Shown here piece after piece: positions 1,569-56,072 of a DNA stretch of 64,000 bases. The translations under genes and the position numbers were made by a program. The stretch spans positions 14,560,863 to 14,624,862 of the forward strand of contig JAJEKV010000036.1 in NCBI GenBank assembly GCA_021234155.1, in the 5' to 3' direction. The notes beneath the pieces were generated by a model. It saw only the letters and a list, made by a program, of their open reading frames with translations, ran no database searches and was not told the origin of the DNA. The stretch comes from Isoetes taiwanensis. Taxonomy: Eukaryota > Streptophyta > Lycopodiopsida > Isoetales > Isoetaceae. The stretch's first letter is position 1; each line of letters begins with the position of its first letter.

Positions 1569-2222
1569 GGGTGAAAATATCCTTACCTCGGTTTTGGTGA
1601 TTCCCTACCGGAATCACAAACCCCCTAACGGGATCCGCGTGGGAGGCCCGTTTCGTGCACACCGATGCAACTTAATAAAATCAATACTGCCCCGCTGAAT
1701 CACAATGAATACACCGGATGGAATCACAACGTATTTATACCTCTGAAGGAATCACGGCGACGGAATACGACCGGCCTGACGGAATCACCACGGAATTATT
1801 CCACGCGATGGAATCACGGGCGTTGCAATACCGGATGGAATCACCACGTGAGGATTCCACCCCGAAGGAATCACGCCAAGGAATACCGTCGGACGGAATC
1901 ACCACGGAATTATTCCACGCCATGGAATCACGTCGTAATACCGCCGGATGGAATCACCGCCAGGGATCCCGCGCACGTAATCACCACCTTGCAATTCCCC
2001 GGACGGAATCACCATATTCGATTCCGTTCGATGGAATCACCAACATCGCGAATCTTGGGCCCGTGGAATCACCAAAGTCGATTCCACCGGACGGAATCAC
2101 TTCCACGACCATTCCTCCGGCGGAATCACCTGTCTGATTCCTTCGGACCGGAATCACCAAGCAAAATCTGATTCCGTCCGGTGGAATCCGCGTCGCCCGT
2201 GAATCCACCGGATGGAATCACC
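1569..2222 (+). repeat. Left terminal inverted repeat of the MULE, made of GGAATCACC-type units
   Basis: The reverse complement of 8249-8795 can be followed through this segment, with insertions and deletions: shared landmarks are the terminal 19 bases, a GAGGCCCGTTTCGTGCAC block, and an AAGCAAAATCTGATTC block near the inner end. From about 1680 inward the repeat consists of dozens of imperfect copies of GATGGAATCACC and its partner GGATTCCAC, spaced irregularly at roughly 15-30 bases. The open frames that cross it in several phases are a by-product of this repeat and are not genes. Confidence 0.85.
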
Positions 2223-2449
2223 TGTGGAATTCTCCAAACGAATGCATGTTACGTGCGTCGCAACATCAAGACCGCATTCATGGACGGATCGGCCCGGTAG
2301 TGGTGTCGTCGTGAGTCCAACTTCGCCGAATTTAAAAACGTGCATCCCCGCACCCTTTTGTGTACCATCGCGATGGAATCACCTCCTCTATTCATCCGAG
2401 GGATTCACCTGGCATTCCTCTGCTCTAGGACGGCATCGGGGAGCTCGGG

Positions 2450-4335
2450 ATGGATTTGGACGAGAGGATCGAGGAGGTTAGTGCCTGAAACAACTGATTT
2501 GCATGTCCTTGCAGCGGGGCAAGCTCTGATAGCATTTTTATTGACAGCTGCAATCAGGCATTTGGCAAACAGACCTGCGAAGGGGGCATTTTGATCACGA
2601 TCGACCGCCACGGGTTATGTTAGAGCACCCGAGTCACGAACCCGGAAGGAGGAGGTACTCAACCGGTTTGGGTGTGCCACATTCCCACCTCACGGGTTGG
2701 GGATTTCATAGCCAGGGGAGCAAAAAGTGGGGAAGCACCATGCAGTTTCTACATAAGAAGCTCTCAAAGAAATAAAGAGCTATCCAAACCGGGCAAAGGT
2801 TCATATTTGACTTTGAAGAGGTGTGAATTTCCTTTCCCTAGCTTGTGATAATTTATTTGGATTTTAAAGCTTGTCTGATTCATTCCCTGTGCAACAAAGG
2901 TACTGGTGTGTCTTTGGGCGGAAGACAATTCCCGAGAACACTCATGTTGTTGAGGATCGGCGTCCCCTCGAGGCCAAAGAAGGAAGAGGATTGAGAGGGG
3001 AGAGTGTTAGAAGGGGTTGCCAATGTCATTTTACTTTGAAACAGCTCTATCTTCTTCCCAATTGCACTCAAATTACCTATCACAAATGGGATCATGTGAA
3101 CAAGCAAGGTGCAATCGCCATGGTAAAGCACAACCTATTGAGAAAGGGTTGAGGTATAGGCTAGCAATCATGCTCTCGCTTTGAAAAGAAAGAATGGATC
3201 AAGCGAGGGCTAGTGCACTATATAACACCTAGAATGGTGATGAACATCCACCAGGAGAGGGTGAACTTGAAGAAAGAACTGGTTGGTTTGGAGGGTTGTG
3301 TAGGGGCGACATGTTGAAGATGCATGATGTCTACAATATTGATAAATTGGTGGCTCGAAATGTATGGAAGTTGCATGAAGACCAAGCAACAAGCATCAAC
3401 ATGTGGGTCCAACAACACCAAGATTGTGTCTTCCACTACGAACAAGGTGACATCTTTCAACTTGGGGTCATGACTCCCATTCAAAGGGATGCCATGGTGA
3501 GATTCGGAAAGGATAGAGCTATATGCCTTGACTCCACCTACAAGACAAACGAGAAGAGGTTTGGTTGCTCTTTTTTAGGTTTCTTGGAAATTAGGTTTGC
3601 TAAAGCGTGTTTCTATTTACATAGGTATTACCTCTTCACTCTCATTGGATTCGATGACCACTTCAATGGGCTGCCACTGGCTTGGATAATCACGAATACC
3701 CAAAAGAAAGAGACAATAGCTAGATGGTTGGAAGCTATGAAAGTGTGGATTGAACATCACGACGACACTTGGAAGCCCTCATGTTTTATCACCGATTCTT
3801 GTGACGCTGAAGTACAGGCGATAAAGAAGGTAACATTGTTTGCTAGTTTTCCTCATTTTCATTCTAGCTTATTTGGTTCCATACTAACCCATGTGTCAAC
3901 TTTCCACCTCCACCATAGGTTTTTTCCTCGGTGACGTGTCAACCTTTGCATCCGCACGTGAGGAGAGATTGGTTGAAGTGGTTGACAAAGAACGTGAAGA
4001 ATAAAGATTTGAGGAACCAAATGTTCAAGGAGTTGGGGCGAGATCATGTATGGAACAAAGTGTCCCCAGGTAACAATGAGTATGGGGATGATTACATACA
4101 AAATGTTAGAAGAGGCTTGAGGAAGTTGGAAGCATTAAAGAGAAAGTACCCACAATATCCAAAGTTGGCGGCCTACATGAGTCAAGAGTGGACTCGCTTA
4201 ACATTTGTGATTGGGTCCCGCCACAAGAATGTTTCCCCATTCCAATCAAGAAACCAATGCTTTAATAGAGGCTTCGCACAAGGCACTAAAATTGCCTTCT
4301 CGGATTTCCAAGTCCCATTAAAGGGCGAAGGATAG
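2450..4335 (+). pseudogene. Decayed MULE/FAR1-type transposase
   Basis: This is the transposase that would cut and re-insert the element. A possible first exon starts at ATG near 2453 (MDLDERIEE) and meets a GTTAGT donor. A second block (about 2871-3150) holds the N-terminal DNA-binding type region, with RRGCQCHFTLKQLY and a THY-like HKWDH segment. The catalytic core (about 3300-3830) has the first Asp in CLDSTYKT and the second in FITDSCDAE, as in MULE transposases. A likely intron (3830-3918, GTAACA to CATAG) joins AIKKV to FSSVTCQP and then VRRDWLKWL; the usual Cys-x-x-His-like pair after this block is not intact. The last part ends at a stop at 4335 without a visible SWIM zinc finger. Several stops separate the blocks, so it is most likely inactive. 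Family assignment is firm; exon limits are not. Confidence 0.7.
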
Positions 4336-5140
4336 ATTGGCTACTTCACATGCTTGTCCATGATGTGGAGACCCACATGGCATACTCTAGGTAATTCTTG
4401 GACCCACTCCCCATCAAAGCGTCTGGGTGGGGGATGTGTGAAACGTTGGAGACCTTCCACGGGAATCCTTATGCACTCACAACCGCGTCCCGAAGGTATG
4501 GCGGCAGAAATTGGCGGGACCTCTACGGTCTGCGACTCGGGAGCGGCCTTCTTGACTCTCAAGCACGCAATCCTTGGCGCCTCAAGAAAACCGAGGTCCT
4601 ACGGCGGCGCCACGATTACGAAGCTAGTGGGGGGGCGATCGCCATGCACGGAACTCAGCTACAAATCGTAAGAACATCCATCGTTTGGTTTTTACGGTGA
4701 ACATGATTCTTACGATTTATAGAGCCGCGGAGGTTGCGGACCTGATGATGATATCTTTGGAAGCTAGCGCGATGGTTTTGGGAAGCAAGCGCCAAGAGGA
4801 AGAAGATCGAGAGCCTCCGCGAGGACGGCATGCTAGGAATTATGATTCAATACGAAGAGGATGGCTGGTCGTGGCGAAGTATGATTAAGTCCGTGGAATC
4901 ACCCCCCTGGGCCTAGATTTTAAGCCCTAAATTGTCCGTCGGTGTAGCCACGAGGTGGCGGTTTCATTCCTGTTGCGTACGTCAGTTAAACGTCCGTCCG
5001 AGTGGCAGTCCTTTGACGTGACCAAGCAATTAATGCCTACGGCATGCAATGATGGGGGCGGGCATTCCATTGGATGGAATCACCAGCTTGTGATTCCACC
5101 GGATAGAATCACCCGCCGAGAATCACCCACCGGATGGAAT
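4336..5140. other. MULE interior with a second block of terminal-type repeat
   Basis: Overlapping open frames at 4354-4900 give no recognised protein; one (4398-4700) includes GRNWRDLYGLRLGSGLLDSQ and could be captured coding DNA. From about 4890 the GGAATCACC motif of the terminal repeats returns, densest at 5068-5145 (GATGGAATCACC several times). Confidence 0.4.
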
Positions 5141-5448
5141 CACCTACCCACACTCACGACCATTGCCAGACAAATAGTTCTCTATTTTTTGAATGGACGG
5201 CATATTCGAATATTCACGTTCAAAAATTTCGAAACAGATTCGCGCTAAATTACTTTCAAATTCAAATTCAAATGAGTTCAAAGTCTGAAACATTCCTGAA
5301 TCACCTACCCACACTCACGCATTGCCGGACAAATAGTTCTCTATTTTTGAATGGGCGGCATATTCAATATTCACGTTCAAAAATTTGGCAAAGCAGTTAA
5401 ATTACTTTCAAATTCAAATTCAAATGAGTTCAAAGTCTGAAACATTCC
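5141..5448 (+). repeat. Two-copy tandem repeat of about 160 bp
   Basis: 5141-5301 and 5302-5448 are imperfect direct copies. Both begin CACCTACCCACACTCACG, pass through ACAAATAGTTCTCTATTTTT and end with AAGTCTGAAACATTCC. The second copy lacks a few short blocks. They sit directly behind the internal GGAATCACC block. Confidence 0.8.
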
Positions 5449-8248
5449 GGAAGTCAGATTAAACCCAGCAATGCTGGTATTTTTGCTGTTATATTCACAG
5501 TTTCTCACATACATAATAAAAATTCAAGGCCCATGCACCCTTAAACGGGTCATGGGGCCACCGTTTTCCTCTCAATCTCCCCTCGTGCAAGTGGAAGGTG
5601 GTTCTTCTTTGCTTTACCACGGTCTCCGTTTTTGTAACATCACTTTGCAAATGAGGACCTCGTCACGTCGATCTCAAAGACGCCCAAACCATTTTGGAAG
5701 CATCGACAACCTGCAACTGGGAAAATTAGCACGAAGTTCGAATAGACTAGATAAAATTGGACACATATAAATACCCACAGATTGCTCTTTGGTGTTGCAG
5801 ATATCCTGCAAGAACCACTTCACGAAACAGATGGTGTAAATTCCGCAATCACAGGTGTTTTCTGGCGAGGGACCTTCAGAGACGCGGCCGCATTGTGCAA
5901 TCTGGGCGACTCAAAACTCCACCTCTTCATAACGTCGGAAACAAATCTGGGGCCAAAGGAATGAGAGAAACCCAAAAATTGACCTGAAAGGGGCATAATT
6001 TTAACTTACAATGTGGCTAAACAAAGGTAAGCTCGAAAGCATGCCCGACATTGAATCCAAAATGGAGCAACACCTGACCGAGTGCGGGCCGCAGGGCATG
6101 CATCAGCGTCTGAAACCAATATGAACAAGCTCCGGTGATTCTTTGCAAACAATTGCCAAACCGAATTAAGGTTCAATTGCCCATGAATGGATTTAAAACG
6201 GATTCTTTACACGCCATGATCGAAGTAATAGAACCCGACATTCTCGCATCCGCCAATTACCGCACGATGAACGGTTTAGGGATTAATTTAGCAAAATGGA
6301 TCATATGAACCGGATTGACCTTCCAAACTGATGCAGAAAAAGCCCAAAGGCCGCAGGGATGCCGCGAAAACATGCCGTGATCTTCGCTTTGGGGAATGGA
6401 ATGTATCAAGGCCCCGCAGAGACCACATAGTCGGCCCGAATCAAAGCCTTGTGATGCTTTCGGGTAGTGCTTATAAGACTGACTTACATTAGATAGGCAC
6501 CAACCCATTCTTCGTGATTACGCAATCCACATCATCACGGGACCTGAACTGTCGCGAAATCTTGGTGAGAAGTTGCCATACACACGAAATTACGGCTGTT
6601 GATGATTTCTTGCCCACTCGAATGGTACGTCTTTGCTTAGTGTCGATGGGTATTTAAATGTAAAGTTACTGGTCCACCTCCCTAAAGAAGACCTGATTGA
6701 TAAGAGAACATCAATTAAAAAGTTGGCTTCCGACCTATGCATCATGGGGATCTCAATTAAAGTGCCCTCCTCTTCCGGGATGGAGCTCGGGATCGGGAGT
6801 CCTCTTGAATGAATTGCCTCACGGAAACCTTCAATGTAGCCGGAGGTTTCAAACACTATATGGTTAGGGGCAAGATACTCCTCATTTTTTTTGCCCCTCT
6901 TCTTCCTTGGGTTTTCGGGGAGCTCCGAGTGGGAGCTTGCACACTTTCCCCCTCGAGGGGGATGCAAGATCTCCTTGGGCCTGTCGGCGAGTTCCTTGCT
7001 AAAATCATCATTCTCTACCTGAGCTTGCTCTCCGGAATATGAAATCTCTAGCCTTCATCTCTTCAATCACAAACCAAAACTCGGTGGCGATTTTTTTCTA
7101 ATTGCTTCCCTCTTACGCTCCTCCAAAGTTTCCTCTACCGGTCCCGCCTTATCTCCACCTGATTGACCCAAGGACCTCATAGCAGGATTAAGAAGTCCGG
7201 TGCTCAATCACGTCCTCCGCCATAGCCTCACCCTGCGCTTTGCCTCACCAAAATCCGCCTAAGATTATCTTTTGCGCCACGGATAATCTTCATCCCAAGG
7301 CCCGGCCCAGCTTCACCAATTCAAAGTTCCTCTTCCTTCGCTCATTTCTCGAGCAAATGGTTTCCGACCTCTTGCCAATGGCGGGCAGCCTTGTAATCAT
7401 TCGTCATGGAATGCTTAGCGAACTGTGGATCTCCGTGATCCCATTTTTGGAGTAATCGCTACTACAACCACCGAATAAACAATACCACCGCCATGCCGCC
7501 CGATCCAATTTCCAGCCGATTTCAGCATCCATGTATCCTGTTATCCTCGGGAGGGTTCTCCACGGCATCCTCTCCAAAATCTTCTGCTCTCGGTGTTGAA
7601 CTTTTCCTTTGCATCCTTGCACTCATTCTTTTCTTTACTTACCGGCTCCCCTTCCAAAGACACAGGAATAATTCGCCGCTCGACTAGCAAAGCGCTGCCG
7701 CACGGATGCAAGATCCGCCATCTCACCCGCGGCTCCAACCGCTCAAAACCTGGAGGAAATTTAGGAGGGGAGTCCACCTCCCGAATCGACCCGGCTCTTC
7801 CGACAACGGATTGTTGGCAAAAGAAATTTGAAAGCGGAATTGGCGGAAGATTCTGCACTGGAAGTTCTCATTAACGAGGTTCCGGGCTTTGATCCATCTC
7901 AAGCGGCCCGAGCGAAAAGGGACAAGAATTCGAAAGGGAGGGAGGAAATCCGAGGCGCCGCATCGGGGAGGAACGGAGGCGGGAACGGCTCGAGAGAGGG
8001 CTTTTTTTACGCCAATCTGTGGTGATTCCTTTCGAGAGGATCACTATCTTCAGGAAAGACGTGGCATGCAAGTGATAGGACAATGAACATGCAATCATTT
8101 CCTTGTCGCCTTAATACGGTAATAATAATACCCGTCGGACATTCAATTCAAAAGCCGAGCCACGAATTTGGCACGGCTTTTATATCAAATATCCACGGCA
8201 CCGATTTAATGGACCGGTAGCACCGACGGCTGGATCGCCCTTCGGCGG
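5449..8248. other. Unidentified cargo of the MULE
   Basis: About 2.8 kb between the tandem repeat and the right terminal repeat. No complete gene is seen. Exon-sized open stretches exist on the plus strand (5782-5964, with ITGVFWRGTFRDAAALCNLG) and, in a run, on the minus strand (8098-7871, 7858-7541, 7622-7404, 6967-6590; the last includes YIEGFREAIHSRGLPIPSS). The base composition is richer in G+C than the flanking DNA. Captured host fragments, as in Pack-MULEs, or a decayed second element gene are both possible; I recognise no family. Confidence 0.3.
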
Positions 8249-8795
8249 CGGTGATTCCATCCGGTGGATTCCGGCGACGCGATTCCACCGACGAATCAGA
8301 TTTTGCTTGGTGATTCCGGCCAAGGAATCGATTGTGGTGATTCCGTAGAGGAATGGTCGTGGGAAGTGATTCCGCCCGGTGGAATCGACTTTGGTGATTC
8401 CGCGGACGGTGATTCGCGATGTTGGTGATTCCATCGAACGGAATCGAATATGGTGATTCCGGGCCCGGAATTGCAAGGTGGTGATTCCGTCGTGGATCCT
8501 CGGCGGGTGATTCCATCCCGTATTACGACGCCGTGATTCCATCGGCGTGGAATAATTCGTGGTGATTCCGCCCCGACGCAACCTCGGGCGTGATTCGCCG
8601 GGCGGAATCCTCACGCGTTATCCATTCCATCCGGCCATTCTACTGCTTGTGATTCCGCGGGGCGGTATTGATTTTATTGCCGCATCTGTCGTGCACGAAA
8701 CGGGCCTCGCAGACGGATCCCGGGGGGTTTGTGATTCCGCGGTAGGGAATAACCTCGATGGAATCACCAAAACCAGGGTAAGGATATTTTCACCC
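8249..8795 (-). repeat. Right terminal inverted repeat of the MULE
   Basis: Inverted counterpart of 1569-2222: it shows the same unit in the opposite orientation (GGTGATTCC reads on the plus strand) and the same order of landmark blocks. It is about 100 bp shorter than the left copy because of deletions of repeat units. Confidence 0.85.
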
Positions 8796-16368: not shown

Positions 16369-16739
16369 TCATAACCAAATTTCGATCGTGTGCCTTTGCC
16401 TTTGCAAGACTTCCTTTTTCTTCTTGGATCTAAAATGAGCTTCCATATCATACACAAAACAGCTCAATTTATCCCCACCAAACTCATGTCTAGAGATAAG
16501 GTTTTCCTTCTCAAATGCCTCTTCAAATTCCAAAGTTGATTTTTCAACCTCTAAAATTTGAGGATTCAACCTACAATGTTTTTGTCAACAATTTGCTAAC
16601 CTCGATATCAATGTCAAAACCTAAATACGCAAGTAAACAAAAGAAACAAAGAAAAGATGAATACGCTTTTATATTCTACAAAACAAAGCAGATGAATCTC
16701 TCAACTATAGTGTAAAAAAGACACCCACCTTCTTCATAG

Positions 16740-17160
16740 GTCCAAGTCCAAAGATTTTTATCCCGAGGGTGCGCCGACTCCATTGTTGATTCAAATCTTG
16801 CAGCTTGCAAGATCTTTTCAATAATAGAAAAGCAAAAGGTCGCTATATTTCCGCATCCAGTTTGTGCACATGCCATCAAATCCCTCCTCGTTAAAGAAAT
16901 CGGAATTGCATATCTTTGCACCGGAGTAGGCTTTTCATATTTGCACAATTTAATATTTTGAAATAGAACTGCATGTAAACCTAGATATGCGTAACTCTCC
17001 AAAGGTACCGGGTGCATTACTTCCATGGACTTCAACCGGTACATCTTCATATTTGTCAAAGTCAATACCTATATTTTCCCTTTCTAAAACACGATATGAA
17101 GGACTTCTAGCAACTTCGCTCTCCTACCTCTTCCTCTACAAATTTTCTAGTCAGCCTTCT
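16740..17160 (-). pseudogene. Fragment of a DED1/DDX3-type DEAD-box RNA helicase gene
   Basis: The minus strand encodes the N-terminal half of the helicase core of plant DED1-like proteins. Reading from 17,110: ERENIGIDFDKYEDVPVEV, then in a shifted frame CKYEKPTPVQRYAIPISL (the Q motif), RRDLMACAQTGCGNIATFCF (motif I). In the intact family motif I ends GSGKT; here Ser-Gly-Lys-Thr has become Cys-Gly-Asn-Ile, so ATP binding would be lost. The similarity fades after about 16,800. Truncation, frameshifts and the changed Walker A all mark it as a dead captured fragment within tract A. Confidence 0.78.
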
Positions 17161-17620: not shown

Positions 17621-18142
17621 TCATGAGTACCGCTTCCACCCATTTGCACCAGCCCAGCCCGAGTTACCCCAATTAGACTACGCTACATGAGCACCATCTC
17701 CCCAACCCGTTGTAACGTTGCTAACGCCTTGCCCTCCATACCATGCATTTCCCAAAAATAATTTGCATTTGTATTTGCAAACAAGAGGTTGCCGATTATA
17801 ATTATTCCAAGCATACTCGTTTGCATAAGCATCCCTGTTTGCATTCCCATTATGAGCAATCATTCATGAGCAAGTATTCCATATTCTTGTTTAAAGGAGC
17901 ATAAGCTCGATCGGGATGATTTTACCCGGCAATCAATTACTAATCGACCGATCTTAGCAAAGGAAAAAATACCTCGATATTGCAATACATTTTCAAGAAA
18001 GCGGCTCAAAGGCGATCGTTATTTGCCAAGACACCATCGCCCGAACACCTTACCCGGTTTCCGTGAGTGGCTGCCCAAAGAACGAAATGACCGCCCAGTT
18101 ACATAGAATAGTGGGTTTGGAGCAAATCATTGGAATATTCCT
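17621..18142. other. Right part of tract A without a gene
   Basis: No long coding frame or recognised motif is seen; short open frames give no family. Confidence 0.5.
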
Positions 18143-18216
18143 GGGCATATACTAGCATATACTTGAAATATGCCACAAACCCATATAAACAAGGGTTTGC
18201 CCCTTAGGGGCAACCC
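18143..18216. repeat. Palindromic end block P1
   Basis: An inverted repeat GGCATAT...ATATGCC is followed by a common AAACCCATATAAACAAGGG spacer and the hairpin GGGTTTGCCCC / AGGGGCAACCC. About 75 bases; a close homologue is at 26,610-26,694. Confidence 0.8.
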
Positions 18217-19621
18217 AAAAGAGGTTGAAAGCATTGAGCAACAAGGATGGTAGAAGGAGTAGTGTGGATCGGCGAAGTAGGCGAATGCCATTTGGAGTAA
18301 CTCGATTTGTGTAATTAAGAGATATCAACTGCTACCACATTGGCTTAAGAACACTCAAAATATTCATGTCATCCGTGGCTTGAATTTATACATTTCTAGC
18401 ACGACAGCCCAATCCTTGTACACACGTATTGCAGAAGGTCAGCTTGCATTTGTAGTTTTGGCTTAGAGTTTGTTTGTTGTTCAGCCTTTTGTGCAACTAT
18501 GTTTATTTTCACTTTGTATAGCTAGGGGGTGTCAAACGGCTGGCACTTTAACTTTGAAATATTGAAGTAATGTATGTTTAATTTTATACAATTCTAGCAT
18601 GCGAACGAAGCTTCAAATGTAAGGCGCATTTTATTAATCTCTAGTTCGAAAGAGGATGTCAGGTTTGTATTGGCTTCAGGCTTACTACCTAATGAAACCA
18701 TGTGGCATGACCATGTACTCATGGGAGCCGTCGATGGAGAGTATATTCCATATATTCTACTCCGTCAATGCCCCATGATTTTTGGACACATAAAACAAAA
18801 GCTAAAACCTAAGGTCACTATCAAATTGTACAAATATTCACATCTATTCCATACCTATGTCCACAAAATATGTGCATGCAATTCAAAACTATAGCTCCAC
18901 ACAAATATACATGGATTTGCAACCCATAGCTCTATACACAAAAAAAAGTCGCAAGTTCTTCAAGTAGGCATGTCTTCCATTCTTCTCTTGCTGCAGCCCA
19001 TACTTTCGAATCATGGCCCTTCTCACACCTCCACCTCATGGAGCTCTTCAAAGAACAGAGCTCTACACAGATTGAGATGTGACCAAAGGGCGCCTCTTTC
19101 TAACACTGCAGAGTTGACACCTTGGCTCTCCAGAAGACCCATAGATACCTGAATTCGGTCTAGTGTGTTCGCTAATGCTACACACAACTCCCGACTCACG
19201 CACACACGTTTCTTCACATTCCTCTGCCAGCCCAAACTAGTCAAGAGATAAGGACTCCTCTCCTCTCTTGACATTCCACCACCGATCGTGCATCTAATTT
19301 GATTTATACTTTGTCATCACTAATAATAATGATATCTCGTTCCCTATTGTGGAACACTCGCCTTTCGTCTCCATCTACAAACATTACAATCAAACATTAG
19401 GAACATTCATAAGAAAAATTATTCAAATAGTAGAAATCTACCACATCATAATGCATCAAACTCAAAATCATGCATATAAAGAGGAATGTATGAAGCATCC
19501 ACAACTGGGATATCGGGAGGCGATGGTCGCACTCCGTTGTCTACACGAATAAACTCGTCCCCGCTACTACCACGATTGCACTGCCTTCTCTATCCTCAAA
19601 GGTATCACCAGCGTCCCAAAA
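18217..19621. other. Region downstream of the Rep-like gene
   Basis: No recognised gene. The minus-strand frame 19,274-19,023 (with RELCVALANTLDRIQVSMGL) is compact and could be a detached C-terminal piece of the HUH-type gene that lies upstream of it on the same strand, but I cannot confirm that. Confidence 0.3.
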
Positions 19622-21056
19622 CTACCTCCTTCTTTTGCCTATTCGCTCAACAGGCATGATTCCAGGTTGGCTGCCAAACAAGGCCATTCTCACATCCTTG
19701 TAGGCACATCGTTCAGGGGCTAGCATTATGCACCATGCCGCCTGCACACACTCAAGGAAAATGTATGCCGAATTATTGGGTAAAACCCATGAGCTTGCCA
19801 ACCTGAACTTCGTTGTCTGCAACATTGACTTCACAGTGTGCACGAAAGAGGCCGTTTTAAATCTGCCAGTATGATACAACAAGTAATGAAAGGCTCTTCT
19901 CATAATGTTGCGATTGTCAAGCATAATCACATGCTTGATATCCCCAGCACCATAGAGGGCATATATTTCTTTCCCAGATCTCACATGCTCAGTCGTAACA
20001 TTGTGCATGTGGACCTTAAAACGAAGCTTGCCTATATCTTTTAGGCAGTAACCAACTATTTCCTCGAAGCAATGCAGTCTACTTCCCGTCAAGGCCTTGC
20101 AAAGGATAATTGCTCCGGCGGGTCTACTATCCTTCCATCATAAGAAGTTTTTGATCTTAACATTTACGCTTGGCCTACAATCTCATAACGGACTGCACAT
20201 GTAAGTGGTCCATAGACGATCCTCGCTCCAAGGCCACGACCCCAACCTCACAGTTCTGCTCCAAGAATTCTACCATTCTGTCATACAAGGGCACATGAAC
20301 ATTTGCACCTCCAAAGACTATTGTGACGGTAACATCCAAGGCCGCAGGCACATCGACGACTTCCTCATTAGGACCGCTCGCTATGTCGTCGCTCACATGC
20401 TCTTCCAACACACTATGGATCTTCCTCGGTCTACCTCGTCCATGCTTCCCCCCTCTACCTTTGCTCACGTATGTCCTTCCATCTCCCTCAGACTCTGGCA
20501 TACTCCCCTCTTCCAATGAGCACCTAGCAATGACACCATCGAACTTGACCTGTTTTTTTTCTTCCTCTCTTCTCACGACCTCCCCTTCCCCTCTTACTCA
20601 CGCCCTCTCTATTTGTTGGATATAAAGCCGGTCTTCAATCTTCAAATACGGCAGCAGCCTCAACAGCCTGCCTATCACCGCCATCATGCCATTGGCAGCC
20701 TCAGCACTTCTTTTTGCAAGCACGACATCTTCCCTTGAGTGCTCAGCCCGCTGTGCATCACCCCAACTCAAGGCCTCCTGAAATCTACCATCCCCCTCAG
20801 GAACAAATTCCATGCTCTTTGTCCCTCCTGCTCCCCATGTTATGGCAGGGCCTCTTCTCTCCGCACACTTCCTTCTAGATTCCCTTGCTTGCTCATCCCG
20901 TGCAACCGCTCTCCAATCCGGTTGTGAAATACTTTTCCCTGCATCCATGCCTCCGCCAAATGCCATAGCGTGCATCCCGGCAAAGACCACAGGAATGGGC
21001 ATGTGATACATCCTCACCTTTAGCCTCGCTGTTCGACGCAGATGCATGCCCGACAC
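19622..21056 (-). pseudogene. Broken Rep-type HUH endonuclease gene (Replitron-like candidate)
   Basis: HUH endonucleases nick one DNA strand with a tyrosine during rolling-circle replication or transposition. On the minus strand, 21,056-20,175 is one frame with a single internal TGA (20,600-20,598). It holds a helical N-terminal part (ANGMMAVIGRLLRLLPYLKI), an AT-hook-like GRGGKHGRGRPRK, a beta strand DVTVTIVFGG (motif I position), and ALERGSSMDHLHVQSVM, whose HLH is the HUH metal site (codons at 20,207-20,193). After a frame change and a TGA (20,140-20,138), the next frame carries SRLHCFEEIVGYCLKD, whose YCLK is the catalytic motif III (Tyr codon 20,050-20,048), about 48 codons behind HUH as in Rep proteins, then KVHMHNVTTEHV and a C-terminal part ending at 19,622. 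Order and spacing of the motifs are the case for the call. No helicase domain is seen. It could instead be an endogenous Rep-like sequence of other origin. Confidence 0.62.
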
Positions 21057-22036
21057 TCCTTCTTACACTCATAATTCCTTCCCTGCATGATGGCAAACAG
21101 AAACAAGCTCCCCCCCGTTCTGAATTCCAATGCTTCTGCTTGGATTCGGATCTCTGCCTATCATAAACTACGTGGCATCATCAGGCTCTCAAGCAAGAGG
21201 GCAAGAAACAAAAAAATACAGCCGAGAGCTTTTGGGTATCAGCAAATGTCTACCGAAACAGCCGAGAGCTTTTGGATATCAACAAATGTCTGCCATGGAC
21301 CGGCTCTACAACAATATCTCTGTTCGATAACAAAACCAGGAGCGGGGACCAATTCATAGCTCGACTTCCTCTCTTTCTATTCAACCCAATACTTCTCTCT
21401 GCACTCAGAAGCTCTGCGTATCAGGAACATAACAAAAGCATTATCCGGACCCGATTCACACTCCACTTCTTCTCCGTCCATTCACAATCTGACGGCATCA
21501 AATGCTAAAAAGGGTACAGAGGCCCAATTCCTTTCCCTACCTTGCACGCCACAAAGAATCCGCTAACCCTCGCCCATCACGGGTTTACAAAGATCAAGCC
21601 CAAAACCTCTGTTTCCATGCTCAATTCCAGTGACAACCAACACCTCCCCGTTTCCCGATGATCAGAAGACACAAGCACAACAAATCCTACTGACAGAAGA
21701 AAATCATAGACAACACTCACCAGCGCTCCGAGCACACACCCAGTACTCGATTACATTGGCATGCCCCCATGACTCGTCCACTCAATCTCCATACAATCTC
21801 CGGACCTTTCTCTTTCTATTTCCAAACCATGCACTCAGCAATCCAACTCCATCTCCCTCGGAACCACGTAACCCATCCCCCCGCTAGTAAGCAGCTCAAA
21901 CCCAGGTTAAAAAATACCTTGAACATACTATTTCATATACACACGACCACGAAATCTAGGCAAAATCATGCGTGAAATATGATCCCCAAATACGAAACGA
22001 AATAATTGGAAATTCATTGAGGTCGAGAAAAAACAA
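21057..22036. other. 5' flank of the Rep-like gene, with a 40-base direct repeat
   Basis: C/T-rich sequence without a recognised gene. At 21,218-21,254 and 21,258-21,294 a unit beginning ACAGCCGAGAGCTTTTGG occurs twice with a 40-base period. Several short open frames are non-descript. Confidence 0.5.
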
Positions 22037-22539
22037 CGTGCTGCGCACGGAGGGTTGCCCTCTATGGCCCGAGGGTGAAGTGGCTTAAATTAAATCCACA
22101 TGTGACCTGACAATATACACAAGACTAGTTATGGAGAATTCGTGGAAATTGCCATCTTTATAATATTTTTGATCCATAATGTTACACGCCTTTTTACCGA
22201 CCGAGCTATTGCCCACATCATCATGCTTTTATGATCTTGGGGATCGTGAATGTGGTAGGAGGACGTTATCCTATTTCAGTGCCCGATCATATCCAAACTA
22301 AAAAATTGCCCACCTTCGATGGGGATTCCATGTGATTGCACATGAAGAGTATACTTAATGTGTATAGTATTTTGGTTGTAACACACTCTATGTCCTATCA
22401 CAACACGAAGAAGGTTTTTTGGGGTGATATATAGTTTGTGCAATTTTTTATGTCGTAAACTGCTTCCTTTTATCTTCCTTGGCATCTTGTCAAATATTCT
22501 ATGGACATTGTCAAGCATTCTAGTTTCCACATACTCTTA

Positions 22540-26000: not shown

Positions 26001-26609
26001 TACTCTAACAGTTGAAAAGAAAATAAATATAATTTGCTAAGCAATCGAAAAGAACGAAACTTACAAAGGAATATAAGATTTCTTCCAGATCAATCTCAAA
26101 CGGCTCTTGTTAACGAGAAATACCACCGAAATGGTATATGTAGATTTAGACATTGGAACATCTCCCCGCACCGCCTCCACTCCTCGTCTTGCCGCTGCAA
26201 TAAAACGCTACCGTATCGCCGATCCAAGATGATCCTAAAGCGTAAGCTAATCCGAAAATTGAAGGCAAGTTCTAGTTTCTAAGCTCCATAAACAAATCTC
26301 GTTATGCTTCCCTAGCTCGCCATAGCCAAACAACAATCGCCAGAGCTCATAAGCGGAAATGATGCAGGCACCCGAACAACCGATTAGATGTCAAAAAAGA
26401 CACCGAGATGGAACGAAGGATGAAAGGGAGGGATGGAGGAGAGGTAGAATCTCCATCCTCACGTCGGCTCCCGCTTTTTCGACTCATTTCTCTCATGCCG
26501 ATGGCCTCCATGCATCCAAACTTCCGGTTAGCCGGTATGCACAAAGAGTCACCGGGCAAATGTGGATGACCTAACATTTACAGCTCATAGCAGGTTTTTA
26601 GCAGTTTTT
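23015..26609. other. Interior of tract B without a recognised gene
   Basis: Mostly A/T-rich DNA with scattered short open frames. On the minus strand near 24,560-24,310 a degenerate stretch reads like old coding sequence (MFMEIYDNFDFVDMT-like with frame breaks) but gives no family. At about 25,857-25,870 TTGGCCAAGTGGTTAG matches a tRNA A box; the matching B box is poor, so at best it is a SINE or tRNA relic. Confidence 0.4.
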
Positions 26610-26694
26610 GGCATATTCTAGGTATATGCTAGCATATACCATGAATATGCCAAAAACCCACATAAACAAGGGATTGCCCCCCTAGGGGCAACCC
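26610..26694. repeat. Palindromic end block P2
   Basis: GGCATATT...AATATGCC encloses a perfect 20-base palindrome, GGTATATGCTAGCATATACC (26,621-26,640). After a 19-base spacer comes a second hairpin, GGGATTGCCCC to GGGGCAACCC (26,670-26,694). It is homologous to P1 and ends only 104 bases before the start codon of the remodeller gene. Confidence 0.85.
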
Positions 26695-26798
26695 AAAAAA
26701 TGCAAGTACACCTTTTTTGTGTCATGATACGTGGCAAAATTTAACTGGTAAAAAAACGACAATAGGGCAGCTATCCCGCCTTGGTCGTAGTAGCAGCT

Positions 26799-30000: not shown

Positions 30001-33000
30001 GTCAAGGAAGCTCTGGCACTTTTCTTATAGGACTCTGTACATTACACTGTAGCATTTTGATTAACCAAGAAGCAGATGCTGTTGGTCTCTGCCTTTGTTT
30101 TGAAGTTGCTGGCCGGGGCTTTAAGCTGTCCTGATCAAAATGTGTTGCATATATTGTTCACTTTTACGGGAATGTGCCGATCACTGCCATTAGACTTTAA
30201 CATCTCTGTGTACTGATCTTCATAGTGCTCAATTATAGGCTCTGAATATGCTTGGTCATCACTTAAGCCTTGATTTTCTAGCTATCTTATTTAACTTAAT
30301 TATTAACATGTGCATTTATTTTGTGTTACAAATGTTGGTGGGATTATAGTTGCTAGCAATACAGAAGAAGGTGCGCTTTGAAGTGGCTGCCGAACAGCAC
30401 TTTCAGCAGCTGTGTTCTAAGCCAGAGACCGTGTTGTTTGATTGGGGACTTATGCGATTGCGGCAGCACTTTGCTGCATTCATGGGAATTCATACTGGAA
30501 GCTCTAGCCTTGGCCTAGAATCTGATGAAAGATTACGCAGAAAAAAAGAATTAGAGGTAATATTCAGTTTGTTCGTCTTTCAAGTGACCTGTGCTGGTCA
30601 TTTATCACGTTTTTATAACATTCTAGAGACAAAAACGAATGGAAGAGGAGGAGCAGGCAAGGATTGCAACAAGAAAAAGGAAGTTTTTCAATGAGTTGCT
30701 AAATTTGGTTCGGGAGTTCCAGTTGCAGTGTCAAGCTACCTCTAAGCTTCAAAAACAACGCAATGATGGCATACTGGTAATAATACTTTGAACCAGCTTA
30801 CTTCATGTTCATGCATCTGGCTTGACATGAACTTCTTGGCATATATGATTGGTTGTCTAATTAATATCACTACATTGCGCCTGAAGGCTTGGCATGCGAA
30901 GCAAAAGCAACGGGCAACACGTGCCGAAAAGCTAAGGTTTCAAGCTTTGAAGTCTGATGATCAGGAGGCATATATGCGAATGGTCGAAGAGAGTAAGAAT
31001 GAACGGCTTATGACTTTGCTCTCAAAAACTGATGATCTTCTCCAGAGGCTTGGTGCCATGGTTCAGAAGCAAAAAGATGCAGAGCCCGAGGATAATTTTA
31101 GGAAGGAACGACATCGAGAAAAGGGAAAAGATTGGGGAAACCTGGAACTTGGTTCTCCACGGCCAAGAATGAAGGAAGGGGAGGGCACAGGGGCAGATGT
31201 GGTCTCTCCAAAGGGAACACTAAGTGGTAAAGATGGGGCAGACGAAATTGCTGGCCATGAGATTGGAAAGAAAAGGGACTTCCTCGAGGGGCAAAGACAG
31301 TACAATTTTGCTGTACATCAGATTGAAGAGAAGGTAAACGTTTCCAAACACCTGATAAATTCTTGAGGAGCTTTTAGTTTGAAAAGTAATTTGATGATTA
31401 AGGTGTAAACTGACATGTGCATCCCATATTGTCCAGGTAACAGAACAGCCAGCAATGTTGGAAGGTGGAGAGCTACGGACATACCAGCTAGAAGGTCTGC
31501 AGTGGATGCTTTCATTATATAACAACAACTTGAATGGGATACTTGCTGATGAAATGGGTCTGGGAAAAACCATCCAGACTATAGCCCTCCTTGCTTATCT
31601 TATGGAAAACAAAGGCTTATCAGGACCACATATAATTGTTGCACCAAAAGCAGTCTTGCCAAACTGGTCACATGAATTCAGCACATGGGCTCCAAGGTAG
31701 GTGTTTTTTGGTTACCTTAGCAATATGGCATGCTGCACGTTTGCTTTTCTGTAAACGTTTTTCATAGGCCATAATGCTAATCTTTTGGACAAACTTTGTT
31801 TTTCAGTATGATAGTAGTAGTTTATGATGGGCGGCTTGATGAGAGGAAGGCATTGCGAGAAGAATACGGACGTCATGCAAAGTTCAACGTTCTCATCACT
31901 CATTATGACCTAATTATGCGATAAGGCATTTTTGAAAAATTAGATGGCATTACATGGTTGTGGATGAGGGTCATCGTCTCAAAAACCATGAGAGCATGCT
32001 TGCCCGAACTCTGGCAGCAGGGTAAGATGAACTTCATTCTTCCATCTCTATCTATCTATCTATTATGGTCTGAAAACCACTCATTTTGAATGTTCGATGA
32101 CTGTCCTCAAGCTTGTTACTTTTACATTGTCTATTTTCTATAGAGAGTACTACAGTACATCTACCTTATGCACAGGGTCACAATTACCTTACTGGATCAA
32201 GAAAAAATTTGTTGACAGAGTTTTCTTTGTTATACCCGACTTTGTCATGTCTCATGAATGTGCAATGTGTAACATTTGAGCTATTGGGACTTATTAGCAG
32301 GTACCATATTAGGCGAAGGCTTCTTTTGACTGGAACACCAATACAGAATAGTCTTCAAGAGTTGTGGTCATTGCTAAATTTTTTGTTGCCAGCTATTTTT
32401 AATTCGAGTCAGAACTTTGAAGATTGGTTCAATGCCCCTTTTGCGGACCGTTCTGAAGTCTCACTTACAGAGGAAGAACAACTGCTTGTTATTCGTCGTC
32501 TGCACCAGGTAGGTTTTGAAAGAAATTTCATTTGAGCTCTTATTCAAGCATGCGATGTTGGTTTCCATGGTAAAAAAAGCCATGTGCTGGCAGCTTTGAG
32601 ATTTCTTGTGTTTTACTGTTCAATAGAAGTTGCTTATGGAAACACAGTCCATCTGTTTTAGTTCAAGGAAAGCTGATTATGGAAGTTTACTGATATAGAG
32701 GCTGATATTAAGTTCGGGAGCCTGAGCTACAGATGATAAAAGATAAATATGTGGATTTATGTGCAGGTAATCCGTCCTTTTCTTTTGAGGAGAAAGAAGT
32801 CCGAAGTTGAAAAGTTTTTGCCTGGGAAAGTTCAAGTTATATTAAAATGTGACCTTTCGGCCTGGCAACGGCTGTATTACCAGCAAGTTATCAGTGAAGG
32901 TCGAGTTGGTTTAGATTCTGGTAAGAAAGTTATTCATCTTATCAATGTATTGTAAAATAAGCTTTTAACACTGCAAAAGAACTTGACTAGATTGTTTTTG

Positions 33001-36000
33001 AGTAAAACTTTCATTCATTTGGCACATATATATTTTATGAGATATATGCTCAGCATTGACGTCTAGCTTGATGCACTTGCTTAGTGAGGGTCTTTTCAAG
33101 GAAGTAGCTAATCAGTTATTAAGTCTCTGGAATAACTTACTTATGAAGGTTATTTGAATACAAGGACAGGAACCAGATTTTGCATTGTTTGGCTTCTAAT
33201 GCCAAAGAGATAGTTATCCGCATGGGTATAATTTTGAATGAAATGGCATTTCATGTTCAACTTTTAAATGAAAATTTGTGACCAGTTCTTGGTGACAATT
33301 ACAACTGCAAGAGCAGCAGCAATAAAATCCAAGGAAGGCTTCCATTCTTGAGTGCAGAATTTACCAGGCAAACTAGAAGTCTCATTCTTTGCTGAATTTT
33401 GTACTTGCAGCGAACACAGTATTAGCGTTGCTTATTCTTGTTAGGTCAACCTATTATGATGACTCAGCAAGCACCTTTTTCCACGTGTGTTACTTAGGGT
33501 TTAGGGTCACGTGTGTTGATGACATGGCTTATCTATAAAGGCCATAGTCACTTAGGGTTTAGCAGGTTCTTTCTCATGCATGCGTAGAGCAGCCTACGCC
33601 CCTTTTTCATCTTTCTCTGTTCCTTCAATTCTCTCAGTCACAGAGCACTTTCATGGTATCAGAGCGCTGGCTTGGAGGAAAGAGTTAGCATCAGTCTATT
33701 CAACAGTTTATTTGTAGATTACATTGAAAAGAGGCTTATCTACCTTCAGAAGAATTGCTGAGGCTTCTCAACAATCCAAAATTCGTCTGCATCAGAAAAC
33801 CTCACAGGATTTCTTGCTAGCTTTGCAAGAACAGAGGAATTTGCCAAGAATTGTAAATTCTGGAGCAAGAATAGTCAGATCCCTTTAATTCTTGCTGCAC
33901 TGGGCCGTTTTTGAGGCTGAGCATGGATATATGCATACCCAAATTCGAAATTACACATGATTTTATGGCATTGAGCCGGTTTGGGTCAGATCTGGGATCC
34001 CAGACTTCATAGTCTGAAGTAATTTTTTTCTAGACTTTTCTTTCCTTGTTAGATCTCTCAGATCTGAGTGCCTGGAGTAGATCTGAGTGCTTGGAGTAGC
34101 CCTATTGACAGATATATTCAGATTTCTTCTACCCAAAATTCTTGAGCCACAGACATGGCAGCCAGTCATGAACCTTGGAAATATTTTCAGCATCCAGTTC
34201 TTGATGGTGATAACTATTTCACATGGAGAGATGCCCTTCAAACCCATCTTAATTTGAAGGATTTAGGTGATGTATTGGGCAAATCCTGGAATCCTCTCAC
34301 CCCTGAAGACATAAAGAAAGACTTCTATGCCCTCAATCATTTGAGAGCATGTGTATCACCAGAATTCATGCGTGATATCAGAGATAAGACCACCTTTCAA
34401 GAAGCCTACAGTATTCTTCACAATGCATGTGTTCATTCAGGTGATGGAAAGCAGCTCTCTCTTCAAGGGAAAATGAGCAATCTAAGGTTGCAAGATTGCA
34501 CAAATATGAGAGATTATATTCAACAATTAAAGGAGTTAGCAGAAAAGTATCATGGAGCAGGTGGTACTATGGATGAGATCAAGCTTATCTTATATGCCTT
34601 GAATGGTTTATCCAAAGAATATCAGCATGTCAAGGATTTTTATCAACTGCAGCCCAAGATTCAAGTATCTTTTCATCAGCTACAGCAGCAACTATATGAT
34701 GCTGAAATCGAACACAAGAAGTCAGCAAATGAAGAATCAGCACACTATTCAAAAGCTAAGTATTCTCCTGCTCCAGCTAATAAATATGATAGATCTGAAA
34801 AAAGACACTTCAATAAGTCTTCTGATGCTGATTCTAGCTCTAAAGATCCTCTCTCATGCTGGTATTGTGGCATCAAAGGTCATATGAAGCGTAACTGCAG
34901 GAAATTAAAGAGAGAGTTTGCTCAATATTGCAAAACTCAGCCATCTCCTCATGCACCTGCAGAAGAAAAATCCACTTCAAATCCCACTTCAACTACTGCT
35001 GCTCATGTATCACATATTGATATTGATATTCTGGAGACCCAATTTCTCAATCTGGCTGCAGAGACCTTGGCAGCAGATGATGTCTGGCTCATTGATTCCG
35101 GAGCCACTAAACACCTAGCAGGAAATTCAGGACTTGTTCACAATCTCAAGTCTTATGATAAGACTCTGGTAAGAATGGCAGATGGTCACATAGAACATTC
35201 AAAAGCCAAAGGAGCTGCTATCCTTCAAACAGAAAATTGCCTCACTTTCAGAATTGAAGATGTGATTCTTGTACCTGGCCTCCTAGTTAACTTACTCAGT
35301 GTAAGTGAATTTGATAAGAAATTAGGCTTGTCCGTGTTGTTCACAGGCGGATTCGTTCACATCTTGCAAAAGAATCCCCTGGCTTATGTCGATCTCCAAA
35401 AGCTTGGACCTATAGCACAAGGATTTCTCAACAAGGAAGGACTTTATGTGCTTCACAATCACTCTGCCACAACAAAAACAGCAAACTCATATACAGCAGC
35501 AGTTCAAACCACTCAAGAATCACTGTGGCATGCAAGGTACGGACATGCAAACCTTTCTGCTCTAGTTTCTGCATCAAAGTATCAAATTGTAAAAGGCTTA
35601 CTAGTTCTCAAAGCGCAAGATCTTCATTGTGCTGCATGCAGGCTTGGCAAGCAAATCCAAGCTCCATATCCAGATCAAGCACAATATCGCGCAGATAGAC
35701 CACTTCAATTGATACACTCTGATATTTGTCATTTGCCAATTGCATCCCTAGGTGGCAGCAGGTATTTTATCCTCTTCATTGATGACTTCAGCCGCTACAC
35801 TTGGATTTATCCCATCAAATATAAATCTGAAGCTTTTTCCATTTATCAAAATTTCAGCAGCCTTGTTGAGAATCAATTCTCAACCACTATTAAGGCATTC
35901 GGGTCCGATAATGCCAAGGACCGATAATGCCAAGGAATACCTGTGACCGATAATGCCAAGGAATACCTGTCTCATGAGTTTGACGACTTTCTACGGTCCA

Positions 36001-39000
36001 AAGGAGTACAAAGGGAATTAATAGTCCCATATGCCCATTCTCAGAATGGCGTCGCAGAGCGCAAGAATAGATCTATTATGGATCTCACACGGAGTATGCT
36101 AAAGCATAAAGCACTTCCAGCCAATTTTTGGGCAGAGGCAGCTGTCACAGCAGTTTACATCTCTAACAGGGCCCCCACTAAAACCCTGAAACTCCAGACT
36201 CCATTTGAAGCTTTGTTTGGAAAAAAGCCTGATGTATCACACTTCAAAGTGTTCGGATGTCTAGGATATGCTACCTATCCTAGGGAAATTCTTCAGAAGA
36301 ATGGAAAGTTAGCTGACAGATCTTTGAAATGTATTTTTATAGGGTATGCAACCAACATGAAGGCATGGCGCTGTTATGATCCTATTGAAAAAAAAGTCTT
36401 CTCTTCCCGGAGCATGGTCTTTGTGGAAGATGCCGTATACTCTTCTGAATTCTATCACCCTGATCAGATAGAATATGACAAGGTCATATGCAACTTGCTT
36501 GATAATGATCATTATACAGAACATTCCAGCCCAGCAAAGCCATCACCACCTACAGTCACCCCTGCTGCCAAAACACTCATGATGCCTTTGCAACCAGCTC
36601 CTCTAACTCTCATGCACAATCCGTATGATGATTTTGCGCCACTAGACTTTGTTGAACCTGTTCCATCTCCAGCATCTTCTACCCATACTCCTGTTCCATC
36701 TCCAGCATCTTCTACCCATACTCCAGTTCAGAATACTCATGCTGCACCACGAAGATCCGCCAGACGCACGCCTTACCAGCTATAGACTATCGTGAAGATA
36801 GTGTCATCCCAGCCAATCTTGCAAGCTCCAGTTTTTGCAATTATGCCTTGATGGCAAAAGTGTTGATGGATTCTGATCCAACAACATATGCTCAAGCAGC
36901 AAAGCATGCTCACTGGAAAACAGCAATGCACGAAGAACTCACCATGCTTAATAAACAGGATACTTGGGACCTTGTTCCAAAACCAGCAGACCATAACGTA
37001 ATAGGCGCAAAGTGGATATTTCGCACCAAATATCATTCTGATGGCACCATCTCAAAGCACAAAGCTCGCTTAGTAGCAAAAGGCTACACACAAGAACAAG
37101 GATTTGACTATAATGAAGTCTTTGCTCCAGTGGTTAGACTGGATACTATGAGAGCAGTGCTAGCATTAGCAGCTCAGAAAGGATGGCCAGTCTACCAAAT
37201 GGACTTCAAATCTGCTTTTCTCAATGGAGAACTAGCAGAGGAGTTATACATGCAGCAGCCCCCTGGATTTCAAGATCCACACTATCCAAATTATGTGTGC
37301 AAGCTAAAGAAAAGCATCTATGGTTTGAAACAGGCACCCAGATGTTGGAACATGAAGATAAATGCATTTCTCATTGATATGAAATATCAAAGGTCCAGGG
37401 CAGATCCTAGCTTATACTTTAAGTTCCAAAACACATTGGTCTCCATTATTTTGCTATATGTGGATGACACCATAATGACAGGGGATGCTGAAGAACTCAT
37501 ACACTCCACCAAAGCTCGCCTCAATGCTCACTTTGAGGTAACAGACTTAGGCTACTTACATTACTGTCTTGGCATCGAAATTTGGCAAACCTCTACAGGA
37601 ATTTTTCTGTCACAACAGAAGTACACAGCAGAACTTCTTGAGAAGTATCACATGTCAGATTGTACAGCCGCACCAAATCCATATGATCCAGGCCAACAAT
37701 TGACATTACACACTGAGGATGAAGCTGTTGATGGCACATTGTATAGACAGCTCATTGGTGCCCTGCTATATCTATGTACCACTCGTCCTGACATTGTGTA
37801 TGCAGTAGGAGTACTCTCTAGGTTCATGACACATCCTAAAGAGACTCATTGGAAGGCAGCAAAGCGAGTCCTTCGATATCTCAGAGGGACTGCTAAAGAA
37901 GGACTGAGTTATACAAGAGTGTTGCATCCTCAATTAATTCTCTACTCTGATTCAGACATGGCATCAACAGACATTGACCATCGAAAATGTCTATCAGGGT
38001 ATATTTCCTTTTTTGGAGGCAATCCCATTAGTTGGAAGTCACAAAAGCAAGAAACTAATAGCATTAGTACAACTGAAGCTGAGCTTAAAGCTCTCACACT
38101 TACAGTTCAAGAAATGCTATGGCTGGTACACCTATTTGAAGATCTTGGCATTCTCACAACCCCTGCAACGATTTATTGTGATAACATTGGGGCTATTCAA
38201 CATGCCAAAGACTATCAGATGCATCTTCAAATAAAACACATGGACATCAAACTCTGCTTTGTTCGAGAACAGCTGCAAAAAGGACAGCTCAATCTTTCTT
38301 ACTGCTCCACCAAAGAACAACATGCTGATGGTTTTACAAAAGCACTTACAGGAAGACACTTTACTGACATGAAACATTTTTTGCATGTTGTACCTGCAGC
38401 CAGTACTCAAGGGGGACATTGATTTCTCCACTGTTAAATTCTTAAATTTTGTCTACTTTCAGCTATGCTGGTCATCAGGGGGGATGTTAGGTCAACCTAT
38501 TATGATGACTCAGCAAGCACCTTTTTCCACGTGTGTTACTTAGGGTTTAGGGTCACGTGTGTTGATGACATGGCCTATCTATAAAGGCCATAGTCACTTA
38601 GGGTTTAGAAGGTTCTTTCTCATGCATGCGTAGAGCAGCCTACGCCCCTTTTTTGTCTTTCTCTGTTCCTTCAATTCTCTCAGTCACAGAGCACTTTCAA
38701 TTCTCATCTCTTGGAAAGCATTAGAATATCCTGCAAATTCATTACCCAATTCATGAACTTTATCATGCGTGCTAGGGAGAGATGGAAAACATATGCTTGG
38801 CACTAAGTTACATCTGAAGACATTACTTTGATGATCCAAGCATTTTGGTTATTTAATTAATTGAACCAGGATGAAGCATATTTGTTTGTTGTCTCACATT
38901 GTCTTCATCATTGTCTAGGCACAGGAAAATCTAAAGGGTTACAGAATACAGCCATGCAGCTAAGGAAGTGTTGCAATCACCCCTACTTGTTTCTTGAAGG

Positions 39001-48201: not shown

Positions 48202-48659
48202 CCGTTAGTCCTGTACGTCCTGGTACAGGACTATTCATGCATACGACGGACCAAGTCAAGGCCAAGGACCCAGTTGCTTTCGATGCCAAAGGCCCCGTGA
48301 AAGACCAAGCAACGGACCACGCACGCAAAGGCAGCGCGCAGAAGGCCTTCGAGACAAATGATGCCCCGCCACCGCTTTGCGTCGGCCCGTGTCGGCGTGA
48401 TTCTCGAGCATTTCAAGAGGCACCGCCAGCATTCCTGTCGATCAGGCCTCCTTCCGTGAGTCGGCACCTAAATCACCGAGTGTCTATATTGGGCCAAAGG
48501 CCATTGTACTATATATATGAGTAGAGCTAGCAGTTGAGTTTTTAGATGAGTTTTGAGCCTTGTCTCACTTCAGTTTTCTCTCCATTGCGAGAGCTCATGT
48601 ATCTTCATTGACATCAAGGAAGTTGTTCTCGTTATTGTGATCTTATTGTTCTCTTTTGC
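48202..48659 (+). repeat. 5' LTR of the gypsy element
   Basis: About 458 bp. It aligns with 58,446-58,889: shared blocks include GGACTATTCATGCATA, GACCAAGTCAAGGCCAAGGA, GTGTCTATATTGGGCCAAAG, GCCATTGTACTATATATATG and ATCTTCATTGACATCAAGGA. The first bases (CGTTAGTC) appear mutated from TGTTAGTC of the other copy. ACTATATATATGAG is a likely TATA box. Confidence 0.85.
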
Positions 48660-48766
48660 TTTCTTTTCTCCTTTCCCTTGTTCTTTTTGCAAATCCCGCG
48701 TGACATATTGCCAAACGGCGGCTCGACTGGAGCGCCATCAACGACGCGAGGCTGTTCGGGACATGT

Positions 48767-50420
48767 ATGATACTGCTTATGACATTGAGGGTGGTCTCCA
48801 GAGCTCAGTCGGCACCTCCTACCCCTCGTGCTCATTCTCGACCAGGGTCTCCCCCTGTGTATCGCCATTGTTCACAACCTCAATCTCCACAACATACACC
48901 TGTTCAGCCCACGCCTCACTATTTCCAGACTCCTGAGAGCACCTATATCCATATCCCTTCAGGCCACACCCCTCAGCCATCACAACCTTCTTCACCTCCT
49001 GCTGGGATGGGCTACCATCAAGTGTCTTTTGGCCCTCCCCACGTTCATGAATTTCAGTCTTCTCCATCCTTTCAGCACGCTCTTCCTGTTTACTAAACCA
49101 CTGATCTCAAGCCTAATGAGGAGGGCTCTCATGATCCTTCCCCACCTGATACTACTTTCTTTGGACCACCGGGTTTTTCAGTTCCACCCCCAGGCTCTCA
49201 GCCCCCGCCTGTTCCACCTCTCTATGCTTCTGCATATCCTCCACCAAATCCACTGGGTCTGCGCGCCGGTTCGCCTTCATCTCCAATTCATAATTTGAAG
49301 CTCACTTATCCAACTTTCGGCAACACTAAAGGCAAACCTCTGGATCAGAGTGCTCAAGCCCATATGGAGGAATTCGAAGCCTTGGCCATTCTGAATGGTC
49401 ATGCGCAACCACAACTCAAATTTCATATCTTTTCAACCACGCTCCGAGGCGCCCCTCATCAATGGTTAATGGCCAACAAAAGTCACTGAAAACAAAGTTG
49501 GCATGAAATGAAAACAACCTTCCTTTCTCATTATGGCACCACCGATGATGATCAACTTCTTCTCAAGCAACTCAATGACCTCCAAAGAAGAGCCCACGAA
49601 GTCACCAAGGATTTTATGGGACCGACTACACATTCTCGCCAAGAACTCCGGGGAGTACCCCAATGCAAAGCCAGATTCTTGTCTCCGGTTTTACGGCGGG
49701 CCTTCCTCCTCGCCATTCGACTCATGACCCAGAATACTGCGTCCCCAAGTCTCACGGAGGCGAGCCATTGAATTGGTCAATCACTTTCGGTCAACGTTTC
49801 TTCTGGTGTTGCTCTCCGCGGAACTCCCTTTCATACCCCCGCCATGGTTCCTCGGAATGCAGTCCGACCTCGACAAACAAATCCTCAACTCCACAGATCT
49901 GGTGTCATATTTGCAAATATCAAGGCCATTTGGCAAATGAATGCAACTCATCCAATGGATCTCCTCATTGTAAAAGGTGCAATATGTGCAATCAATGCCG
50001 CGAAAGAATGCACTTTCGTTCTCATCCTACACCCTTTCGGAACAAAATAGTTTTTCAAGTCCGCACCACCTCCACAACAACCGTTTTATCCGCCCGGCAA
50101 TATCAAACTCCACAAATCACAGCGGCGGTATCAACAAGCGGAAGAATCTCAGCAGCCAGGGGACAAGGCAATCGTCCTCCCTTTGATCCTTCAAAGGCTC
50201 AATGTTATCATTGTCATGAATGGGGTCACACCACTCGGCGTGTCCTCAACTTCCTCAAGTTCAAGTCCAACTTCGGGCTCAAATCAACCAGCTTGAGTAC
50301 GTCTTATAGCTTATCAACTCTGGGTGGCCAACGGCAAACAAGGCCCCCGTCCGGTTTTGAGGAAGCCCCCTCGGCCGCCTCAACAACGGCGACCTCAAAT
50401 AGCGATATCTACCTCTAATC
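48767..50420 (+). pseudogene. Gypsy gag remnant with two zinc knuckles
   Basis: The N-terminal part is Pro/Ser/His-rich (48,767-49,096 region). The capsid-type part follows (49,295 on: KLTYPTFGNTKGKPLDQSAQ, GAPHQWLMANKSH, then SHYGTTDDDQLLLKQLNDLQ). Downstream are two zinc knuckles: CHICKYQGHLANEC (CX2CX4HX4C, about 49,904) and CYHCHEWGHTTRR, where the last Cys is lost through a frame change (about 50,205). Several stops and frame shifts break it. Confidence 0.75.
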
Positions 50421-54590: not shown

Positions 54591-54810
54591 TAGTTCTACA
54601 CAAGATGCACCACACAGTTCTGACTCCACAGATAGTGACTAAAAGCGGCATATTTATATTAATAGAGGCAAATTACAAAATGTGAGCATTGCCCACTTAC
54701 TTCCGCTATGAGCAAAGCTCTATGGGCAGTGCCCTATTTACAAAATCCTAAGATTAAAACCCTTCTACTCCGGGTTGGGAGCAGGGTGATCGCGGAGGAT
54801 GTGGTAGTAG

Positions 54811-55029: not shown

Positions 55030-55066
55030 CGTCGTCAAGGGTGTCTCAGCTTCGCCCACTGCTCGT

Positions 55067-56060: not shown

Positions 56061-56072
56061 ACATCATATTGA

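Follow-up and report, generated by a model that had tools for sequence, protein, structure and literature searches.

Replitrons are a transposon group reportedly described by Craig in PNAS in 2023, and to our knowledge their transposase gene comes without a helicase. The Rep proteins of CRESS DNA viruses of the geminivirus type show the order HUH and then YxxK. According to excerpts of a 2023 review, Replitrons carry an HUH endonuclease and are found in several land-plant groups, with absence reported for seed plants, and Helitrons are HUH transposons of eukaryotes that lack terminal inverted repeats (PMC10741241). Here we describe a broken minus-strand gene between positions 19622 and 21062 of a 64,000-nucleotide stretch of Isoetes taiwanensis (Lycopodiopsida) DNA, the whole of which we call the window. 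With a probability of roughly 93%, this gene is a dead copy of a Replitron transposase (Rep) gene in plant nuclear DNA, one more relic of an already known transposon family and new only as a further member of it.

The locus resembles Replitrons in its HUH domain, which covers positions 2-127 of the 128 in the Replitron_HUH profile, in the HxHVQ and YCxK residues that the profile rewards, in that its pieces yielded no helicase, and in its plant-like surroundings, whereas it differs from them in being a broken copy for which ends and terminal direct repeats (9-12 bases tested) were not found. With the Reps of CRESS viruses it shares the order of HUH and YxxK, but no such profile was listed for this gene in Pfam searches, which had an expectation value (E) limit of 10 and in which few matches above about 0.1 survive the filters of HMMER. 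Helitrons are, like Replitrons as a group, HUH transposons of eukaryotes in which terminal inverted repeats are lacking (for Helitrons according to excerpts of PMC10741241), but neither a helicase nor a Helitron model was listed for this gene. Further features expected of a Replitron are a host within the reported range (green algae, liverworts, mosses, lycophytes, and ferns), direct terminal repeats of 5-11 bp with no terminal inverted repeats, a target duplication of 2-8 bp, and a length of 0.9-4 kb.

Replitron_HUH profile match and motifs

The catalytic domain of the gene lies in two halves, the HUH piece and the Tyr piece, which matched the Pfam family Replitron_HUH (PF21859; 128 profile positions, curated cut-off 28.5 bits) independently and in the correct order. 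The HUH piece alone scored 25.8 bits over profile positions 2-50 (E 1.5e-5); for the Tyr piece alone, the score was 25.3 bits over positions 88-127 (E 2.1e-5). With both frames joined into one protein and X placed at stops (the read-through), the match ran over positions 2-127 of 128 with 55.6 bits (E 9.1e-15), and PF21859 was the only Pfam family listed. An earlier note on this DNA had proposed a Rep/HUH gene of Replitron type, and the matches obtained with each frame searched separately, as well as that of the read-through, bear this proposal out.

Several controls and further databases were compared with these matches. Shuffled pieces (three shuffles of each, six in all, out of ten made) gave no Pfam match, and an unrelated frame of the window used as a control gave only a weak QLQ match and no PF21859. 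The Tyr piece hit a further unrelated Pfam family at E 0.17, which was taken as chance, and the pieces contain no other convincing Pfam domain. Also taken as chance were one NCBIfam match of the read-through (E 0.094, far under its cut-off) and one PHROGs match of the HUH piece (E 0.13), the Tyr piece having none in the latter database. The sequence search of the PDB returned no Rep chains, with two chains each for the Tyr piece and the read-through at E 1.1 or worse; phage records yielded three matches to the Tyr piece, at E 6-7 only, and the plasmid search with the HUH piece yielded none.

The contribution of single residues was assessed by masking one residue at a time in the 150-residue domain, for which the baseline score was 56.3 bits. 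Within HLHVQ, the masked scores were 53.7 bits for H46 (a cost of 2.6), 56.0 for L47 (0.3), 50.5 for H48 (5.8), 54.1 for V49 (2.2), and 51.8 for Q50 (4.5), while within YCLK they were 50.6 for Y98 (5.7), 51.8 for C99 (4.5), and 52.2 for K101 (4.1), with masking of L100 raising the score by 0.7 to 57.0 bits. The catalytic His pair, Gln, Tyr, Cys, and Lys therefore all occupy positions that the profile rewards, the first His being the weakest of the catalytic residues.

All the features that the earlier note had named on the minus strand inside 19622..21056, i.e., the AT-hook, the beta strand, HLHVQ, and YCLKD, were located, and the Tyr follows the end of HLHVQ by about 47 codons, in agreement with the spacing given there. 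GRGRPRK, which we take to be an AT-hook, is the sole RGRP[RK] across the six frames of the window, and Pfam listed no AT-hook model for the pieces. H-hydrophobic-H occurs 87 times in the same six frames, so the bare motif is weak evidence and it is the profile match that decides. The longer pattern of HUH, 40-60 residues, and YxxK occurs five times when stops are ignored and never within one open frame; the occurrence described here falls outside a single open frame because the frame of the gene is broken.

Reading frames and breaks

The frame that holds the AT-hook and HLHVQ runs from 21062 to 20178, interrupted only by a TGA at 20600-20598, and ends with a TAG at 20177-20175. The frame of YCLKD has no stop between 20137 and 19625, with a TGA before it (20140-20138) and a TAG at its end (19624-19622). 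A single frame change is possible, for example at about 20183-20178, before the first of these TAG codons, and given one such change at least one stop (20140-20138) is left inside the domain. The count of one stop and one frame change made in the earlier note is thus right for the domain, but over the whole stretch it falls short by one stop, that at 20600-20598. This additional stop separates the upstream piece from the HUH piece, which share a frame, and it counts if the upstream piece, a probable N-terminal portion of the gene, is part of it; the upstream piece had no match in Pfam (limit E 10) or NCBIfam (limit E 1). The further suggestion of the earlier note, that few breaks speak for recent activity of the family, found no support in our analysis.

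The open reading on the minus strand of 19622-21062 is more than chance. Together, its three longest runs without a stop amount to 465 codons, a value reached by none of 2000 dinucleotide shuffles (mean 212, largest 362), while the longest single run, of 171 codons, was equalled or exceeded in 9 of the 2000. A codon-usage scan separated the frames poorly and was not decisive, its training set consisting partly of the pieces themselves. Downstream of the last TAG (19624-19622), reading by eye showed a site at about 19375 that resembles the 3′ splice site of an intron, and a 96-amino-acid piece (19313-19026) was without a Pfam match at the limit of E 10. Just upstream of the broken gene, at 21218-21294, lies a tandem pair of 37-bp repeats that are 92% alike.

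Table 1. Pieces and motifs of the broken gene, in positions of the window
Feature	Position	Strand	Basis or remark
Upstream open piece, 154 amino acids	20601..21062	minus	stop-free run in the frame of the HUH piece; probable part of the gene
HUH piece (Replitron HUH domain, first half)	20178..20597	minus	PF21859 match
Broken joint, where a frame change and stops separate the His half from the Tyr half	20138..20185	minus	frames and stops listed
Tyr piece (HUH domain, second half), then about 110 amino acids more C-terminal	19625..20137	minus	PF21859 match
Possible further element remains, short open pieces	19026..19621	minus	conjectural; by-eye reading
AT-hook GRGRPRK	20441-20421	minus	
Beta strand VTVTIVF	20333-20313	minus	
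GVVALERG	20243-20220	minus	
HLHVQ	20207-20193	minus	
YCLKD	20050-20036	minus	

Weighing the alternatives

Some of our results weigh against a Replitron origin. Each half of the domain, at 25.8 and 25.3 bits, stays just under the 28.5-bit cut-off, and passing it needs both frames joined. Terminal direct repeats of 9-12 bases were not above chance between the flanks of the gene, as judged by single-base shuffles of one flank (ten 9-base repeats, compared with 9.2 on average in the shuffles, and none of 10-12 bases), and a second copy of the pieces was not found within the 64-kb window. In viral and prokaryote contigs, 3, 5, and 14 stretches matched the peptide pattern and none was confirmed as a relative, such contigs not being the place where plant copies are expected.

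An endogenous fragment of a Rep gene from a CRESS-type, geminivirus-like DNA virus would also present HUH followed by YxxK, and endogenous copies of this kind are known in plants, but no viral Rep family of Pfam was listed for the pieces or the read-through, against 55.6 bits for Replitron_HUH, and the SF3 helicase model was equally missing at the limit of E 10. The PDB searches with the Tyr piece and the read-through gave no Rep, viral contigs held no confirmed relative of either, and the phage matches stood at E 6-7 only, which together make a viral origin extremely unlikely. Hardly any weight is left for the remnant of a Helitron, in which Rep would be accompanied by a Pif1-type helicase: as the earlier note had argued, this gene does not look like one, since the Pfam listings for the four pieces and the read-through contained neither a Helitron nor a helicase model at this limit, a result that applies to the surviving pieces of a gene whose C-terminal limit is uncertain. 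The sole helicase piece nearby, a DEAD-type fragment at 16679-17068, is of another helicase type, lies about 2.5 kb off, and was taken as unrelated. A host gene that was domesticated from a Replitron and is now a pseudogene, or is still partly used, would agree with the single copy seen in one window and with the failure to find ends; however, the frame change and the stop break the catalytic domain and nothing was seen that points to retained function, so we consider domestication very unlikely.

Element extent, surroundings, and implications

The extent of the element could be marked by a stretch at 18800-22000 throughout which G exceeds C on the minus strand, the skew stopping near 22000. 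Two inverted pairs of at least 14 nt were found within 17-24 kb, neither obviously placed as ends. A double hairpin at 22062-22030 (minus strand) was considered as a Replitron end and rejected: a tRNA-like A-box, TAGCTCGGTCGGTA, precedes it by roughly 130 bases on this strand (22208-22195), and for this reason the tail of a short interspersed nuclear element (SINE) was judged likelier, although an A-box match also appeared in 12 of 100 shuffles of the window. The double hairpin is shared with 12853-12821 (88% over 33 bp), where this second occurrence lies beside a copia fragment; neither fold stands out (z -1.1 and -1.4), and the motif was not encountered when viral contigs were scanned for it. 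The region 22030-22223 on the minus strand, with the A-box-like sequence and the double hairpin before a T run, is a possible tRNA-derived SINE. A 135-bp hairpin repeat (18087-18220 and 26566-26698) was likewise rejected as a Replitron part, as nothing was seen that links it to the gene; the repeat, whose two copies are 78% alike, contains a large palindrome as well as another hairpin, which ends in GGGGCAACCCAAAA.

The window as a whole is plant-like: it carries domains of copia and other retroelements, the transposase domain of a MULE, and a gene of the SNF2 type whose introns are long. Differences of such SNF2 proteins between plant groups hint, weakly, at a fern or another seed-free plant, a host that would fall inside the range reported for Replitrons; an occurrence in a seed plant, such as a gymnosperm, would extend that range and imply late loss or sideways transfer. 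A copia retrotransposon at 33439-38699, whose terminal repeats are 98% alike along 215 bp, lies between the SNF2 (32101-32532) and helicase-C/SnAC (38861-39556 and 39596-40282) portions of a plus-strand chromatin-remodeller gene and is presumably a young intron insertion. A MULE-type DNA transposon spans 1674-8678; its transposase domain lies at 3233-3931, and its inverted end arrays are rich in GATTCC. A retroelement at 48453-58889 has a reverse transcriptase domain (52230-52922) between direct repeats that are about 82% alike. The DEAD-box helicase gene fragment mentioned above (minus strand; PF00270, E 1.1e-4, below the cut-off) was perhaps captured by a transposon. No Rfam family at gathering score and no tRNA gene was found in the window.

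By analogy with the HUH family, the intact protein would be expected to adopt the fold of a single-tyrosine HUH endonuclease, in which the two His of HLH, together with a metal ion, would position one DNA strand, and the Tyr of YCLK would cut that strand and remain linked to the 5′ phosphate. Excerpts of one source describe HUH enzymes in these terms, with a catalytic Tyr that cuts single-stranded DNA and forms a 5′ phosphotyrosine link (PMC13231165). Strand transfer, for which we rely on the same family analogy, would then free and insert a single-stranded copy of the element, and the AT-hook region may help to hold A+T-rich DNA. Helicase and polymerase would be supplied by the host, a host helicase being proposed because none was found in the gene. 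The catalytic domain of the present copy is broken, and strand transfer is therefore not expected of it.

According to excerpts of the 2023 review, no software for Replitron annotation had been developed (PMC10741241). The gene described here adds one land-plant relic to the transposon group reported in 2023, and it is useful for annotation in showing that a profile can pick out a broken copy by its two halves.
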